The notes beneath the pieces were generated by a model. The model did no database searches. It worked only from the letters and a program-made list of their open reading frames with translations, and had not been told where the DNA came from. The position numbers were made by a program, and so were the translations under genes. Shown piece after piece: positions 1,928 through 29,078 of a stretch of 36,501 bases of DNA (positions within the stretch are counted from its first letter, which is position 1; each line of letters begins with the position of its first letter). The DNA comes from Polaromonas sp. GTDB lineage: Bacteria; Pseudomonadota; Gammaproteobacteria; Burkholderiales; Burkholderiaceae_C. The stretch is from NCBI RefSeq assembly GCF_013817205.1, contig NZ_JACDDD010000035.1:1-36501 (forward strand). The letters run 5' to 3'.

Positions 1928-1987
1928 TTTAATCAAATCGGCCGCCAGCCCTTGACTGACGGGCGTAAACAGCTATCAATAACATAG
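1928..1987. repeat. dispersed intergenic palindromic repeat, copy A
   Basis: It starts right after the thioesterase stop and reads AATCAAATCGGCC, an imperfect hairpin core (AGCCC TTGACTGAC GGGC), then ACAGCTATCAATAACATAG. The same order of blocks (ATCAAAT..GGCC, a CCCTT/AAGGG-like core, AGCTATCAA) recurs at 6394, 13263, 14372, 25947 and 35361. It separates convergent genes here. Confidence 0.65.
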
Positions 1988-1998
1988 CGGCGAGGATT

Positions 1999-6464: not shown

Positions 6465-7355
6465 TCACATGGCTTTGATGCGCTGCACCATCTCTTCGGC
6501 AAAAGCCACAAAAGCCTGTGCGCCCTTGGACGACGGGTCGAACACCACGCCCGGCAGGCCGTAGCTCGGTGCTTCGGCCAGCCGCACATTGCGCGGGATC
6601 ACGGTGTTGAAGACCTTCTCGCCAAAATGCTGCTTGAGCTGGTCGCTGACTTGTTGCTGCAGGGTGATGCGCGGGTCAAACATCACGCGCAGCAAACCAA
6701 TGATGGCCAGGTCCTTGTTCAGGTTGGCGTGCACCTGCTTGATGGTGTTGACCAGATCGGTCAGGCCTTCGAGTGCAAAGTACTCACACTGCATGGGCAC
6801 GATCACGCCGTGCGCGCAACACAGGCCATTGAGGGTGAGCATGCTCAGCGATGGCGGGCAGTCGATGAGGACAAAGTCATAGTCGGCCGTGACCGCCTCG
6901 ATGGCCAGCTTCAGGCGTTTTTCGCGGCGCTCAATATCGACCAGCTCAACCTCGGCACCGGCCAGCTCGCGGTTGGCGCCCAGGATGTCGTAACTGCAGC
7001 CGCCGTCGATCAACTTCTGGCTGGTCACCCGCGCCTCAGCAATCGAAGCCGACTCGAGCAGTACGTCGTATACCGTGAACTCAAGCTTGCGCTTGTCCAC
7101 GCCGGAACCCATGGTGGCATTACCCTGCGGGTCCAGGTCGATCATCAGCACCCGTTGCCCCACCTTGGCCAGCCCGGCCGCCAGATTGACCGTGGTGGTG
7201 GTTTTGCCAACCCCGCCCTTTTGGTTGGCTACACAGAAGATACGCGCCCCCACGCTTTTCGCTTCGCGTAATACGCTGCCCCCCGAGGGGGCCAATTTCC
7301 CTTGGGGCGGCCCGGCGGGAAATTCTTGGCCATCAGGATTTGTTGTCATATTCAT
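6465..7355 (-). CDS. parA: chromosome-partitioning ATPase ParA, with repeat-derived N-terminal extension
   Basis: The 296-residue Walker-type ATPase drives segregation of ParB-parS complexes. The deviant Walker A motif KGGVGKTTTT (residues 46-55), the VLMIDLDPQGNATMGSG strand and the DFVLIDCPPSLSMLT switch II region are all present. Chromosomal ParA proteins normally start about 8 residues before the P-loop, at a motif like 'AKIFCVANQKGG'. Here roughly 35 extra residues precede it, and about residues 12-36 come from a GC-rich dispersed element (7247-7320). The ATG at 7355 overlaps the lysE stop as ATGA, and a second ATG follows two codons later. No start closer to the P-loop is obvious, so the extension is probably translated. 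Confidence 0.93.
   Translation of the reverse strand: MNMTTNPDGQEFPAGPPQGKLAPSGGSVLREAKSVGARIFCVANQKGGVGKTTTTVNLAAGLAKVGQRVLMIDLDPQGNATMGSGVDKRKLEFTVYDVLLESASIAEARVTSQKLIDGGCSYDILGANRELAGAEVELVDIERREKRLKLAIEAVTADYDFVLIDCPPSLSMLTLNGLCCAHGVIVPMQCEYFALEGLTDLVNTIKQVHANLNKDLAIIGLLRVMFDPRITLQQQVSDQLKQHFGEKVFNTVIPRNVRLAEAPSYGLPGVVFDPSSKGAQAFVAFAEEMVQRIKAM
7247..7320 (+). repeat. GC-rich palindromic element inside parA (copy 1)
   Basis: The plus strand reads CCCCCACGCTTTTCGCTTCG, then CGTAATACGCTGCCCCCCGA, GGGGGCC, and CCTTGGGGCGGCCCGGCGGG. Blocks CCCCC(A/T)CGCT, CGCTGCCCCC and GGGGCGGCCCGGC are shared with the copies at 17704 and 27556, which lie in reverse orientation. It is read in frame as part of ParA. 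Confidence 0.75.
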
Positions 7356-13262: not shown

Positions 13263-13320
13263 TATCAAACAGGCCGTCAGCCCTTGATGTACGCACGTCA
13301 TCAGCTGCCATTTTGATAGC
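13263..13320. repeat. dispersed intergenic palindromic repeat, copy C
   Basis: It reads TATCAAACAGGCCGTCAGCC, CTTGATGTACGCACGTCATC and AGCTGCCATTTTGATAG. The two ends (TATCAAA ... TTTTGATA) pair with each other and inner GATG/CATC blocks also pair, giving a long interrupted hairpin. It fills the gap between the Bug-type gene and the next small gene. Confidence 0.65.
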
Positions 13321-13332
13321 GCGCCACGTCCC

Positions 13333-14253: not shown

Positions 14254-14371
14254 AAGGGTCCTTGGTCGGAAACAGGAAGAGGAAGAGAGTGGGCGTCTTC
14301 CCCTCCATGCTACCGCGTGGCGCGGTCTCGTGCTGCAGGCCGCCCGCGTGATGAATTGCACGCAATGCCGG

Positions 14372-14417
14372 CAGCCAACCCCCGTCCAGCAAGGGTCAAC
14401 AGCTATCAAAAACAGAG
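14372..14417. repeat. dispersed intergenic palindromic repeat, copy D (partial)
   Basis: It contains GCCAACCCCCGTCCAGCAAG, GGTCAACAGCTATCAAAAAC and AGAG. It matches the right half of copy A (ACAGCTATCAATAACATAG). The left half is degenerate. It lies in the roughly 290-base gap between gstA and the DUF1328 gene, in which I see no other gene. Confidence 0.5.
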
Positions 14418-14539
14418 CGTCTCGGCACATCTGGCCTTGTCCTACAGGGCCATGCGCAGGGCGCTGATTCGGCGGTTGCGAAGCGCGCCCTAACATCACA
14501 TCAGTGACTCGCAGGCGAGTTACCCTACCGGAGAAGCTG

Positions 14540-16728: not shown

Positions 16729-17694
16729 TCAGTGCTGAAGCGGCGCCGCTGCAGCCTGCCGGAAGGCGCTGGGACTTTGCCCGGTGTGTTCGCGGAACAC
16801 GCGGCTGAAATGCGAGAGGTTGTTAAAGCCCCAGGACAACGCAATGCCGGTGATGGCACGTGACTGCGGCCCGGTTTGCTGGATCTCGCGGATGCAGGCC
16901 TGCAGCCGCAGCCGCAGGATGTAGCTGGCCAGGGTGTCGTCCCCGCCGACAAAGGCGTTGTGCAAGTGCCGCTTGCTGCAGTTGAGCGCGTGCGCGATCT
17001 GGTCAATCGACAGCGCCGGGTCACGCAGGTTGACCGCGACATAGGCGCGGATGCGGTCTTTCAGCGCCTCACGTTGTGTCAGTGCCGTGCTTTGTCCGGC
17101 CAGCTCGATCAGCGACAGCCGCACCAGTTGCGCAATCAACTCCCCTGCACCGTGCGCGGCAGCGGCGCTCATATTGGGCAGCTCCTGGTAAGTGCTGCGC
17201 ATGGTGGCCAGCGCCACGCGCGAGATGCCGCTGGCGCCACCGACGTGGCGGGCCATCAGGGTGTCGAGCTGCAGGCCGCGCTCGACGATCAGCGCCTTGG
17301 GCAGCATCACGATCAGGTGCTCGACGCGTTCGGGGTTGTCCACCGCATAGGCGTCGGTGGTGTCGTAAATGGTCCACGCGCCGGGGCTGACCCAGGCACT
17401 GCGACCCCTTTGCTGGACACCGGCGCGGCCTTGCAGTGGCGCGACGATCTTGAAGTAACCCTCATCGCAGGTGCGCGCCATGTCGGCGCTGCGCACGACG
17501 CGGTGGCGATTGGCCTCAAGTTTGGTCAGGATGACGTCACCGGCGTGGCCAGAGGCCATGTGGCCGTCGAAGTCGGTGTCGCCGTAGAGGTCGGACTCCA
17601 GGCCGCCGAAGTGTTTCCAGATCCACTCGCGCCACACCGGCGCACGCTCGCGCGGGGCGACATTGTCGGTGGATACCAGGGTGGCTGCGGTCAT
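16729..17694 (-). CDS. AraC-family transcriptional regulator
   Basis: The 321-residue protein has an N-terminal ligand/dimerisation domain of the AraC_binding_2 (FeaR-like) type (VISP-like GAWTIYDTTDAYAVDNPERV, EHLIVMLPK) and a C-terminal AraC DNA-binding domain. The two helix-turn-helices are LSIDQIAHALNCSKRHLHNA and AITGIALSWGFNNLSHFSRV, followed by FREHTGQSPSAFR. It is divergent from the ABC importer operon and upstream of the aldolase gene, making it the likely local regulator. The AraC_binding_2 group includes regulators of aromatic amine and acid catabolism. A GC-rich dispersed element lies directly upstream of the start. Confidence 0.88.
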   Translation of the reverse strand: MTAATLVSTDNVAPRERAPVWREWIWKHFGGLESDLYGDTDFDGHMASGHAGDVILTKLEANRHRVVRSADMARTCDEGYFKIVAPLQGRAGVQQRGRSAWVSPGAWTIYDTTDAYAVDNPERVEHLIVMLPKALIVERGLQLDTLMARHVGGASGISRVALATMRSTYQELPNMSAAAAHGAGELIAQLVRLSLIELAGQSTALTQREALKDRIRAYVAVNLRDPALSIDQIAHALNCSKRHLHNAFVGGDDTLASYILRLRLQACIREIQQTGPQSRAITGIALSWGFNNLSHFSRVFREHTGQSPSAFRQAAAAPLQH

Positions 17695-17703
17695 GCTGCC
17701 TCC

Positions 17704-17771
17704 TGCCGAGCCGCCTCAAAGGAGGCATGCGGCCCCGCTGGGGGCAGCGAACGAATGTGAGCGAGGGGGGT
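17704..17771 (-). repeat. GC-rich palindromic element upstream of the AraC-type gene (copy 2)
   Basis: On the minus strand it reads GACCCCCCTCGCTCACATTC, GTTCGCTGCCCCCAGCGGGG, then CCTCCTTTGAGGCGGCTCGG. The blocks CCCCC(T/A)CGCT, CGCTGCCCCC, GGGGC and GGCGGC-CGGC appear in the same order as in copy 1. It sits in the leader of the AraC-type gene, between its start and the region where the divergent promoters must lie. Confidence 0.65.
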
Positions 17772-17992
17772 CATGATGCGTCCTGTTGGGGGCTCGGGGC
17801 CTGCCGTGGGCCCATGGCAAAGATTATGGGTGTTGCGCCATGTTCTGTTGCGCCGTGAGGTCAAGGGTTAACCCCAGTCGCTGTGCGCTGGCCGACAACT
17901 GCTTTGTGCGCGCTCAGCAAAGCGCGGCGGGCTGGCCTTAATTACCATCGCGTTTGCACTGCCCTCCGGGCGCTTACAACAAGGAGCACAAC

Positions 17993-26650: not shown

Positions 26651-28921
26651 TCAATCCCGCTTCAATTGCCAGCGCTTGAGCAGCAACGCATTCGAGATCA
26701 CGCTGACGCTGGACAGCGCCATCGCCGCGCCGGCCACCACCGGGCTCAGGTAGCCCAGCGCGGCCAGCGGGATACCGGCCACGTTGTAGGCAAAGGCCCA
26801 GAACAGGTTCTGCCGGATCTTTATCACGGTGCGGTGCGAGATGTCGAGCGCACCGGCCACCAGCGCCAAGTCGCCCCGCATCAGCGTGATACCCGCCGCG
26901 TGCATGGCCACATCGGTGCCGGTGCCCATGGCCATGCCGACGTCGGCTGCGGCCAGTGCTGGGGCATCGTTGACGCCATCGCCCACCATGACCACCGTAT
27001 GGCCACCGGCCTTCAATTTAGCCACTTTCGTGGCCTTGTCACCGGGCAACACTTCGGCCAACACTTCATCGGCGCCCAGGCCCAGGCGCGCGCCCATAGC
27101 CAGCGCCGCGCCCTGGTTGTCGCCCGAGATCATCACCACACGAATGCCCCGCGCGCGCAGCGCCGCCAGCGCCTGCTTCGCTTCCGGCTTGGGTTCGTCA
27201 GCAAAGGCCATCAGGGCCCGGGGCCTCAGGCCCGCAGTCGTGCGCTCCACCAGCAGCGCCAATGTCGCGCCTTCGCCCTGCAGCCGCTGCGCCTGCGGCG
27301 CCAGCGCGCCGAGATCCACCCCCAACTCGTCCATCCAGCGCAGGCTGCCGATCAGGTAGCTACGCACGCCGACCTCACCTTCGCTGCCGCGGCCCGGCAC
27401 GGCACGCAGGCCGTCGGGCTGAGCCACCGTCATGCCGCGCTCCTGCGCGGCGGCCACCACCGCACGCGCCAGCGGGTGTTCGCTGCCACTTTGCAGGCTG
27501 GCGGCCACGGCCAGTTGTGCAGCTTCGTCGGCATCGGCATCGGCCGCGGCCGCGAGAGCCCCCTCGGGGGGCAGCGACTCACGCGCAGCGGGGGAGCGTG
27601 GGGGCACGATGAATGCAACCAGTTTCGGCCGCCCCACCGTCAGCGTGCCGGTCTTGTCAAACGCCACCGTGTCCACCTTGTGCGCCAGCTCCAGCGCCTG
27701 CGCGTCCTTTATCAGAATGCCGTTTTTTGCCGCCACCCCGGTTCCCGCCATGATGGCCGCCGGTGTGGCCAGGCCCAGCGCGCAGGGGCAGGCAATCACC
27801 AGCACCGCCACTGCGTGAATCAGCGCCGTCTCCACCCCTGCACCCACGAAAAGCCAGCCCAGCACGGTGGCCAGCGCAATCACCAGCACCACCGGCACAA
27901 ACACCGCTGAGACCTGATCGACCAGGCGCTGGATCGGTGCTTTCGCCGCCTGCGCGTCTTCCACCAGGCGGATGATGTGCGCCAGCACACTTTCACTGCC
28001 CACTGCACTCACCTTGAGCACCACACGCCCGTCGCCGTTGATGCTGCCGCCGGTCAGCCGGTCGCCAGGTTGTTTGGTTACGGGCAGCGGCTCGCCGGTC
28101 AGCATGGACTCGTCCACCTGGGTCTGCCCTTCCTGCAGCAGGCCATCCATCGGTATGCGCTCGCCAGGACGCACCACCACCCGGTCGCCCAGCAGCACCT
28201 CGGCCACCGGCAGGTCGGTTTCCTCGCCCGTGCCCTGCAGCACGTGGGCTACCTCGGGCCGCAAGGCATGCAGCGCGCGTATCGCCGCAGTGGTCTGGCG
28301 CTTGGCGCGCGCCTCCAGCCACTTGCCCAGCAGCACCAGCGTCACCACCACGGCCGAGGCCTCGAAGTAAAGATGCACCATCGTGTCGGCCTCGGCGCTG
28401 AGCCACAGCCACATCGACAGGCCCCAGCCGGCGCTGGTGCCAATGGCCACCAGCAGGTCCATGTTGCCGGTCAAGGCCTTGAGCGCATGCCAGCCCGCTT
28501 TGTAAAACCGCGCGCCCAGAATGAACTGCACCGGCGTCGCCAGCAGGAACTGCTGCCAGGCCGGCAGCATCCAGTGTTTACCCAGCAGATCGCCCAGCAT
28601 GGGCACCACCAGCGGCGCCGACAGCAGCAGCCCGATGGCGACCGGGGCAAAGCCGGCCCAGGGCGACAGGTCTTCGGGTAACTCCTCTTTCGCAACCCTC
28701 GGCTCATAGCCGGCATTGCGCACCGCACGGCGTATCTGCGCGTCCATCTGCGGCGAAGGTGCGTAGCTCACACGCGCCGACTCGGTCGCCAGGTTTACCG
28801 TGGCGTCTTGCACGCCCGGCACTTTTTTCAGGGCTTTTTCGACGCGCGACACACACGACGCGCAGGTCATGCCGCCGACGCCGAGGTCCAGGGTGAGGGG
28901 GGAGGTGGTGGAAGTAGTCAT
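26651..28921 (-). CDS. copA: copper-exporting P1B-type ATPase CopA, with in-frame repeat insertion
   Basis: The 756-residue inner-membrane pump exports Cu(I). It has one N-terminal HMA domain with GGMTCASC (Cys20, Cys23), the CPC metal site (about residue 377, [12 protein letters not shown]), TGEPLPVTK, the phosphorylated Asp in DKTGTLTVG (about 421), SEHPLA in the N-domain, and [10 protein letters not shown]. Between VGRPKLVAF and [10 protein letters not shown] there is an insertion, about residues 439-455, encoded by a GC-rich dispersed element. The ATG at 28921 gives a normal N-terminus. An ATG at 28945 lies inside the operator, upstream of the promoter's -10 region, and should not be transcribed. 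Confidence 0.96.
27556..27604 (-). repeat. GC-rich palindromic element inside copA (copy 3)
   Basis: On the minus strand (the coding strand) it reads CCCCCACGCTCCCCCGCTGC, GCGTGAGTCGCTGCCCCCCG, AGGGGGC. CCCCCACGCT and CGCTGCCCCCCGAGGGGGC are identical to copy 1 in parA, where the element lies in the other orientation relative to the gene. It is translated as [16 protein letters not shown]. Confidence 0.75.
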
Positions 28922-28935
28922 GAGGTGGATGATCA

Positions 28936-28956
28936 ACCTTGCCATGATGGCAAGGT
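28936..28956 (-). promoter_or_regulatory. CueR-type operator and promoter of copA
   Basis: ACCTTGCCATGATGGCAAGG T is a near-perfect palindrome of the CueR class (ACCTT...AAGGT). On the minus strand TTGACC (28959-28954) and GATCAT (28934-28929) are separated by 19 bases, the long spacer of MerR-family promoters, with the operator between them. Transcription should begin near 28922, essentially at the copA ATG. Confidence 0.8.
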
Positions 28957-29013
28957 CAAGCTTTGGTACAGATCAACCCCACATCGTTCAGGGCTTTGCC
29001 ACGAAGCGGCTTG

Positions 29014-29034
29014 ACCTTACCATCATGGCAAGGT
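29014..29034 (+). promoter_or_regulatory. CueR-type operator and promoter of copZ-cueR
   Basis: ACCTTACCATCATGGCAAGG T repeats the copA operator with one change. TTGACC at 29011-29016 is a good -35 on the plus strand; the -10 after a 19-20-base spacer (around 29036-29042) is poor, as is normal for promoters that need an activator. It drives the divergent copZ-cueR pair. Confidence 0.78.
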
Positions 29035-29078
29035 TCAAGCTTCAGGCTTCTTCCACTTTCATATCAGAGGACAACACC

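Follow-up and report, generated by a model that had tools for sequence, protein, structure and literature searches.

A loop of the copper ATPase CopA in a Polaromonas sp. very probably derives from a mobile betaproteobacterial repeat

The window, that is the whole stretch of DNA analysed here (36,501 nucleotides), corresponds to contig C68 of a Polaromonas sp. genome of 3.77 Mb (G000, referred to as the own genome). It carries a copA gene and a parA gene, both of which contain a short repeat (Table 1). The first inverted repeat listed in the window joins 7260-7292 to 27558-27590 (33 nt, 88% complementary), and a 19-nt core, CGCTGCCCCCCGAGGGGGC, was found exactly at 7274-7292 on the forward strand and at 27558-27576 on the reverse strand. 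This agrees with an earlier note on this DNA, which had claimed that copA and parA hold the same element, inserted in opposite directions. With at most two mismatches allowed, the core was found 134 times in the own genome (66 + 68), against no match for the reversed pattern, so the match between copA and parA is not due to chance.

Table 1. Features of the window that carry or border the repeat (positions of the whole stretch; BRE, Beta-proteobacterial Repeat Element).
Feature	Position	Strand	Content or evidence
copA	26654..28936	-	P1B copper ATPase; HMA, E1-E2 ATPase and hydrolase domains (Pfam; PDB relatives 3rfu and others)
Net in-frame insertion in copA, 63 nt = 21 codons	27544..27606 (ends uncertain by a few nt)	-	DNA alignment against orthologues
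5' half of the repeat in copA, 48 nt	27558..27605	-	GCCCCCACG box, hairpin 1 region, CCCCC/GGGGG hairpin 2
83-nt insertion with full type B copy, antisense to parA	7242..7324	+	Relatives without it
parA with N-terminal extension MNMTTNPDGQEFPAGPPQGKLAPSGGSVLREAKSVGA	6468..7355	-	ORF and upstream sequence
Degenerate shorter BRE-like copy	17697..17772 (ends approximate)	-	Core with 3 mismatches; motif by eye

The insertion in copA lies after the P-domain motif DKTGTLT and ahead of HPLA. The 16-residue stretch that it encodes is read from 27604 to 27557. As the net insertion amounts to 21 codons, the Ala/Asp-rich run of CopA belongs partly to the insertion, and the remainder is native protein by comparison with the orthologues. 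In solved copper ATPases the alignment breaks off directly ahead of the insertion, near own residue 443, and restarts at about 471. Mapping on P1B-ATPase structures, as the earlier note had proposed, placed the insertion where 3rfu has five residues between the aligned stretches (442 to 448). We take this point to be an early loop of the nucleotide-binding domain. The insert is probably a tolerated loop near the start of that domain, which would leave the pump working. A separate inverted pair of 27 nt (28935-28961 and 29009-29035, 96% complementary) is located at the copA start, before small metal-binding and MerR-like ORFs, and may represent copper-regulator sites.

A CopA match was detected in 60 of 61 genomes of the genus (own included), and the best 30 loci, from 30 genomes, were read. 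The span from DKTGTLT to HPLA was 43 amino acids in 26 of the 30 loci, 49 in two, 64 in the own CopA and 71 in that of genome G050. The insert was absent in 28 of the 30 loci (own included), with G050 as the one other carrier. Within the genus, the sharing of these residues by orthologues, which the earlier note had named for distant families as grounds for refutation, was not seen at these 28 loci. The stretch is, as that note had supposed, an insertion and not ancestral protein. Pairwise DNA alignment with five insert-free copA orthologues gave a gap of 63 nt in every one. G050 has an 84-nt copy at the same place, including the type B 3' module described below, and the own copy is therefore 21 nt shorter in its 3'-module part, with the frame still kept. 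Judged from sequence and place and not from a tree, the two copies probably descend from a single insertion.

The parA copy was found directly behind the native codons ATG GCC AAG (native codon 3), that is after ATGGCCAAG. Because 83 nt are inserted there, the native ATG at 7333 now reads into a stop codon. In-frame insertion therefore holds for CopA, whereas the parA copy does not keep the frame of the native ATG and has disrupted the native start. An open ParA frame begins at a different ATG, at 7355, which overlaps the stop codon of the preceding gene. This ATG, or a GTG inside the element, is possibly the new parA start. ParA starts with MAKIFC, without the element, in all ten relatives compared, and the core (at most three mismatches) was absent from the 240 nt before their ANQKGG motif.

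A search of the own genome with 81 nt around the copA copy located the element in at least 41 places (40 of 151 candidates scored). We fetched 80 stretches. Added to the window, they covered 104 of the 134 core copies; allowing three mismatches raised this number to 109. Copies consist of GCCCCCACGCT, hairpin 1 (for example GTCRC-TTC-GYG-T-AC), CGCTG, hairpin 2 (CCCCC-CGA-GGGGG) and then one of two 3' modules. The type B module is a variable stem around TTGGGGCGGCCCGGCG, giving whole copies of 79-82 nt (ends as cut here), and the type A module is a CTGCGCCTGCGG.. hairpin, giving whole copies of 90-93 nt. Within the genus of the window, type A accounted for 58 of 108 and 57 of 83 copies. It was not seen in G108, a genome of another genus (0/27), in other genera and families (0/37) or in the loci of named genomes (0/20). 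Tandem copies in the own genome were spaced by 84 (four cases), 81 (three), 97 and 105 nt. Arrays with a spacing of about 81-84 nt were also observed in other genera, with six copies in L226 (1042-1508), three in L221 (972-1173) and four in L224 (958-1250). No Rfam family matched the element, either in ten loci searched up to E 1 or in the window at the gathering score.

The tri-loop pattern of hairpin 1, which leaves the pairing of the outer dinucleotides free, was fitted by 50 of 101 cut copies. The outer dinucleotides were complementary in 48 of these 50, in ten pair combinations (wobble allowed). Covariation was determined on 38 distinct 47-nt 5' halves from the fitting copies. In these halves 98.8% of the cells were paired, as compared to at most 68.2% in slid controls; 37 cells were changed on both sides versus 10.8 in shuffles (0/500), and the covariation score was 0.260 versus 0.098 in shuffles (0/500). 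Two of the five measures, double-change pairs (443/500) and further pair types (437/500), were not above shuffles. Hairpin 1 thus covaries, with compensatory changes. Hairpin 2 is nearly invariant and silent on covariation either way, and the type A 3' hairpin showed one pair with eight double changes (25 of 54 type A copies). The RNA folding energy of four copies was no better than that of shuffles (z 0.08 to -0.90).

A home-made gene finder based on codon usage placed 38 of the 109 copies within 31 genes; 18 in-gene sites were checked by orthologues and the others by Pfam or neither. The Pfam scan covered 30 of the 31 host genes (all but L021), and the gene names used here derive from Pfam domains. 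The hosts encode mostly conserved enzymes and transporters, among them PrmA, CobB/CobQ, PriA, RecG, AcrB, PutA, GcvP, GcvT, AroA-cytidylate kinase, CtaA, FdhD, an acetyl-CoA synthetase type and others. Several copies were found in GlnE (two), GlnD (three in tandem), MoeA (two in tandem) and a CobT-type DBI_PRT protein (three in tandem, behind the domain), and the tandem copies of the last three stay in frame.

Eighteen insertions were compared with near relatives, nine of them in seven relatives and nine in four; the CFA-synthase type was left without a locus. At 16 of the 17 checked sites at least one orthologue was free of the insert. In the seven relatives this was so for RecG (7/7), PriA (6/7), AcrB (5/7), the first GlnE site (5/7), MoeA (5/7 clean), CobQ (3/7), PrmA (2/7) and PutA (2/7), and insert-free GlnD orthologues were 3 of 3 scored, with four more unscored. 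The remaining sites gave 4/4 for GcvT, Acs, AroA and the second GlnE site, 6/6 loci from four genomes for GcvP, 2/2 for XdhA and 1/2 for CtaA, and no insert-free orthologue was found for FdhD (0/4). In PrmA and PutA the element has opposite orientations in different relatives. Junctions were studied by DNA alignment at 13 sites, where most PutA relatives were filled and gap totals varied in messy alignments. Net insertion lengths in multiples of three are not separate evidence, because intact frames were compared. No target-site duplication was clear by eye at RecG, CopA and CobQ, where the ends are uncertain by a few nucleotides. The A/T share of the 6 nt before the element was 0.68 at filled and 0.48 at empty sites (12 own in-gene sites), a comparison confounded by loop variability and shared ancestry that gives a hint of A/T preference only. 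Since filled sites are more A/T-rich than empty ones, some of these flanking bases may belong to the element.

Reading frames were determined in three survey sets, which contain mostly the copies closest to the consensus. The stricter survey of the own genome, with the 5' box required, gave 81 loci with 107 copies (70 intergenic, 36 in genes and one at an edge). The survey of G050 and G033 gave 70 loci with the best-scoring copies (85 copies, 61 intergenic and 24 in genes), and that of G108 gave 20 loci (27 copies, 20 intergenic and 7 in genes). The 67 in-gene copies, from two genera, were balanced in orientation (30 forward, 37 reverse) and used frames F1 (30), R0 (31) and R1 (6), with zero use of F0, F2 and R2. 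By set, F1, R0 and R1 were used 17, 14 and 5 times in the own genome and 9, 14 and 1 times in G050 and G033, and F1 and R0 4 and 3 times in G108. As the earlier note had stated, both strands of the element can be translated without stops. F0 went unused in genes although most intergenic copies are open in it: of the 70 own intergenic copies, 63 were open in F0, 65 in F1, 35 in F2, 61 in R0, 63 in R1 and 39 in R2. Counted by gene, F1 was used at 23 of 23 forward sites (p 7e-10) and R0 at 30 of 36 reverse sites (p 3e-8), with sites taken as independent and open-frame shares rounded to 0.40 and 0.38. The survey sites are not all independent, because some G050 and G033 sites may be orthologous to own sites; G108 alone gave p 0.07 and 0.04. 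The 18 orthology-checked sites (17 and CopA) gave F1 10, R0 6 and R1 2, and the frame rule is thus independent of the gene finder.

The frames also differ in the peptides that they encode. Among 208 distinct copies (in-gene copies included) the share of Arg and Lys was 0.07-0.14 in F1 and R0, the lowest for both types, versus 0.15-0.25 in the other frames. Cys was highest in F0 and F2 (0.05-0.08), with 0.02 in F1 and less than 0.02 in the reverse frames. Asp and Glu were highest in R0, followed by F1 in type B, while in type A F1 was level with R1. The R1 peptides equal those of R0 in openness and low Cys, yet they are rare in genes.

We consider it very likely that the CopA stretch represents one copy of a mobile repeat of betaproteobacteria, about 80-93 nt long and in all likelihood BRE, which has been filtered by selection on frame and peptide. 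Presence and absence between relatives, opposite orientations at the same sites, tandem copies, restricted frames, a covarying hairpin and the position behind stop codons reported below were all observed. Machinery acting in trans would move the repeat; it would not discriminate between orientations but might mildly prefer A/T-rich sites. The copies surviving in genes would be those that keep the frame, bring no stop codon, lie in a loop and encode a weakly basic linker rich in Pro, Gly, Ala and Ser (F1, R0 and sometimes R1). Between genes, the copies kept would for the most part follow a stop codon closely and point in the direction of transcription, and these may act as structured mRNA 3' ends (stability or translation coupling). 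With insert-free relatives and opposite-orientation sites at hand, the filter on new inserts (frame, peptide, loop) is directly measurable. The finding also cautions that 'variable loops' of proteins annotated in these genera are in some cases repeat insertions.

The frame preference could instead stem from the choice of insertion site, through a target motif with codon phase, and not from selection on the peptide, which we regard as unlikely. Such a phased target is conceivable, since the 5' flank next to the junction is A/T-rich at filled and empty sites and the start of forward in-gene copies mostly coincides with the beginning of a codon (A P T L). However, the near-equal orientations in genes (30 versus 37) each have their own preferred frame, the peptides of the two main frames are the least basic, and the consensus of the 5' flank is weak.

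The repeat was compared with BRE, which has been described as a repeat 75-91 nt long, present in Bordetella and Comamonadaceae, that also occurs in tandem and as partial copies of 40-60 nt (Hot et al. 2011, PMC3110155). It is mostly intergenic, with 'some' copies entirely within coding sequences, and past mobility was suspected (PMC3110155). Here we found units of about 80-93 nt, a 48-nt partial copy in CopA and tandem arrays, likewise in Bordetella and Comamonadaceae according to matches of a 47-nt model with 11 pairs (model R1). The model matched in 19 of 200 members of the order and in 14 of 109 genera (best 30 candidates or fewer scored per genome), with at least 150 matches in each of G050 and G033. 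In named genomes, reached through LexA loci, the counts were 60 in Bordetella genomosp. 5, 12 in B. ansorpii, 3 in B. genomosp. 2, 2 in B. hinzii and 0 in Bordetella LUAb4; 13 in Achromobacter xylosoxidans, 9 in Acidovorax facilis and 5 in Rhodoferax UBA4127; and 0 in Comamonas BIGb0124 and Alcaligenes endophyticus. The tandem spacings in the named loci were 75-78 (12 cases) and 84 (two cases). Beside lexA itself, where BRE copies are described for the B. pertussis group, 80 loci (no B. pertussis among them) gave one strong (L298) and one weak match (L238), with none in the five Bordetella.

Based on size, tandem arrays and hosts, that is by description, the repeat is most likely the published BRE. 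The 134 core matches of the own genome differ from the highest count given in the available text on BRE, 29 in Polaromonas sp. JS666, which was obtained with another search method (PMC3110155). The copies had a GC content of 75% in the own genome and 76-78% in the other sets; the mean in the BRE paper is about 69%, a Bordetella value. A separate family merely resembling BRE is improbable. The likeness is by description and not letter by letter, and no type A 3' module was seen outside the genus of the window, but size (about 80-93 versus 75-91 nt), tandem arrays and host groups are all like BRE, and four of the five Bordetella species contain copies (60, 12, 3 and 2), with spacings of 75-78 and 84. 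The parts of the BRE text at hand do not include frames, host genes, empty sites, hairpin covariation, a stop-codon rule or the type A module (PMC3110155). A literature search, with sources available in part, likewise yielded no description for BRE of in-frame copies within conserved genes, of the restricted set of frames, of the placement behind stop codons or of the compensation in hairpin 1.

The inserts might also be functional protein parts, domesticated as linkers or regulatory loops under positive selection, although this seems improbable. Inserts of similar length occur in many relatives (FdhD 4/4, PrmA 5/7, PutA 5/7), the core itself being recognised in three FdhD, three PrmA and three PutA of those relatives, and the tandem copies of GlnD, MoeA and the CobT-type protein are kept in frame. 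Against this, the orientation and hence the peptide differs at the same site in PrmA and PutA, near relatives are often insert-free, as in RecG and PriA, and the CopA copy is 21 nt shorter than its G050 counterpart. That the CopA loop is an ancestral variable stretch, matching parA by chance or through GC-rich low complexity, is hardly credible: the region is GC-rich and the length does vary in a few orthologues (49 amino acids in 2 of 30), but there are 134 core copies against none for the reversed control, and 28 of 30 loci are insert-free while one has an 84-nt copy.

Genes made up 89% of the fetched own-genome DNA but contained 67 of the 219 copies of the three sets, and they are strongly under-represented among the copies. 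The element thus tolerates insertion inside genes well beyond the two cases known to the earlier note, but the suggestion that it favours such insertion was not borne out. The intergenic copies cluster just behind stop codons. A co-oriented upstream gene was present for 115 of 151 intergenic copies (45/70 in the own genome, 50/61 in G050 and G033, 20/20 in G108). Among these, 99 copies start between -2 and 10 nt from the stop codon (41/45, 43/50 and 15/20), and nine of the 16 exceptions sit 84-131 nt from it, as expected of second tandem copies. The 3' end was within 10 nt of the next gene for 8/70, 0/61 and 7/20 copies. Gene starts were predicted less reliably than stops. An origin of the in-frame copies from loss of a stop codon was also considered and is unsupported, with stop-to-element distances found in all three phases.

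The orientation bias between genes differs from the balance within genes (Fisher p 1e-5). Since orientation in genes is balanced, the intergenic orientation would arise from selection on the transcript and not from insertion. We propose, tentatively and as something that may well prove wrong, that BRE is a mobile structured 3'-UTR element, retained just behind stop codons in the sense of transcription, where its covarying hairpins would govern the stability of mRNA ends or the coupling of translation, and that its spread also seeds conserved proteins (CopA, GlnD, PrmA, PriA, RecG) with linkers in frame across Burkholderiales. If so, one repeat would shape both transcript ends and protein loops across the order. 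The role in mRNA 3' ends is testable, because the stop-codon position has a preferred orientation.

Among other known systems, as far as the available parts of the sources describe them, Rickettsia palindromic elements are short palindromic repeats of about 150 bp that occur in frame in many unrelated genes, and a review highlights Rickettsia for repeats that lie in frame within protein-coding genes (PMC10969869). The 67 in-gene copies reported here are also in frame in unrelated genes, but the hosts are betaproteobacteria and not Rickettsia, and the comparison is by description. A similar outcome is now seen in betaproteobacteria, with more than 100 copies. REPs measure 14-40 or 20-40 nt and rarely overlap coding regions (PMC12306157, PMC3733652), and they are said to stall ribosomes when the stop codon is no more than 15 nt away (PMC12306157). 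They resemble the present repeat as palindromic repeats close behind stop codons, but its units have three hairpin modules and a length of about 80-93 nt. No REP/RAYT link was detected: the sole PF01797 (Y1 transposase) match in the own genome (C109:20255-20575) had no core (at most four mismatches) in its 3.3-kb locus L212. MITEs are small, multi-copy and apparently moved in trans (PMC10969869), like the repeat described here, which differs in that no clear target-site duplication and, by the PF01797 search only, no parent transposon was found.

Some further observations were made on short repeats. The degenerate copy at 17697-17772 lies just upstream of an ORF (16729-17694), with AGGAGG in its 3' arm directly before the ATG. 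By eye, a second shorter BRE-like copy was observed before a start codon in L076, near 1977, and its last hairpin likewise carries AGGAGG in the 3' arm. Because of this motif the last hairpin could cover the ribosome-binding site in both cases. At the AcrB loop, the AcrB of G056 (L130) has a different insert, reading PHPVHPEPVEGQAPASTSSARTEK, which presumably is the translation of another common proteobacterial repeat. Another short repeat, ..CAGCTATCAA..ACATAGCG, is present in three copies in the window (1939-1989, 13271-13321 and 14369-14419), of which two share 71 and 73% identity with the first.
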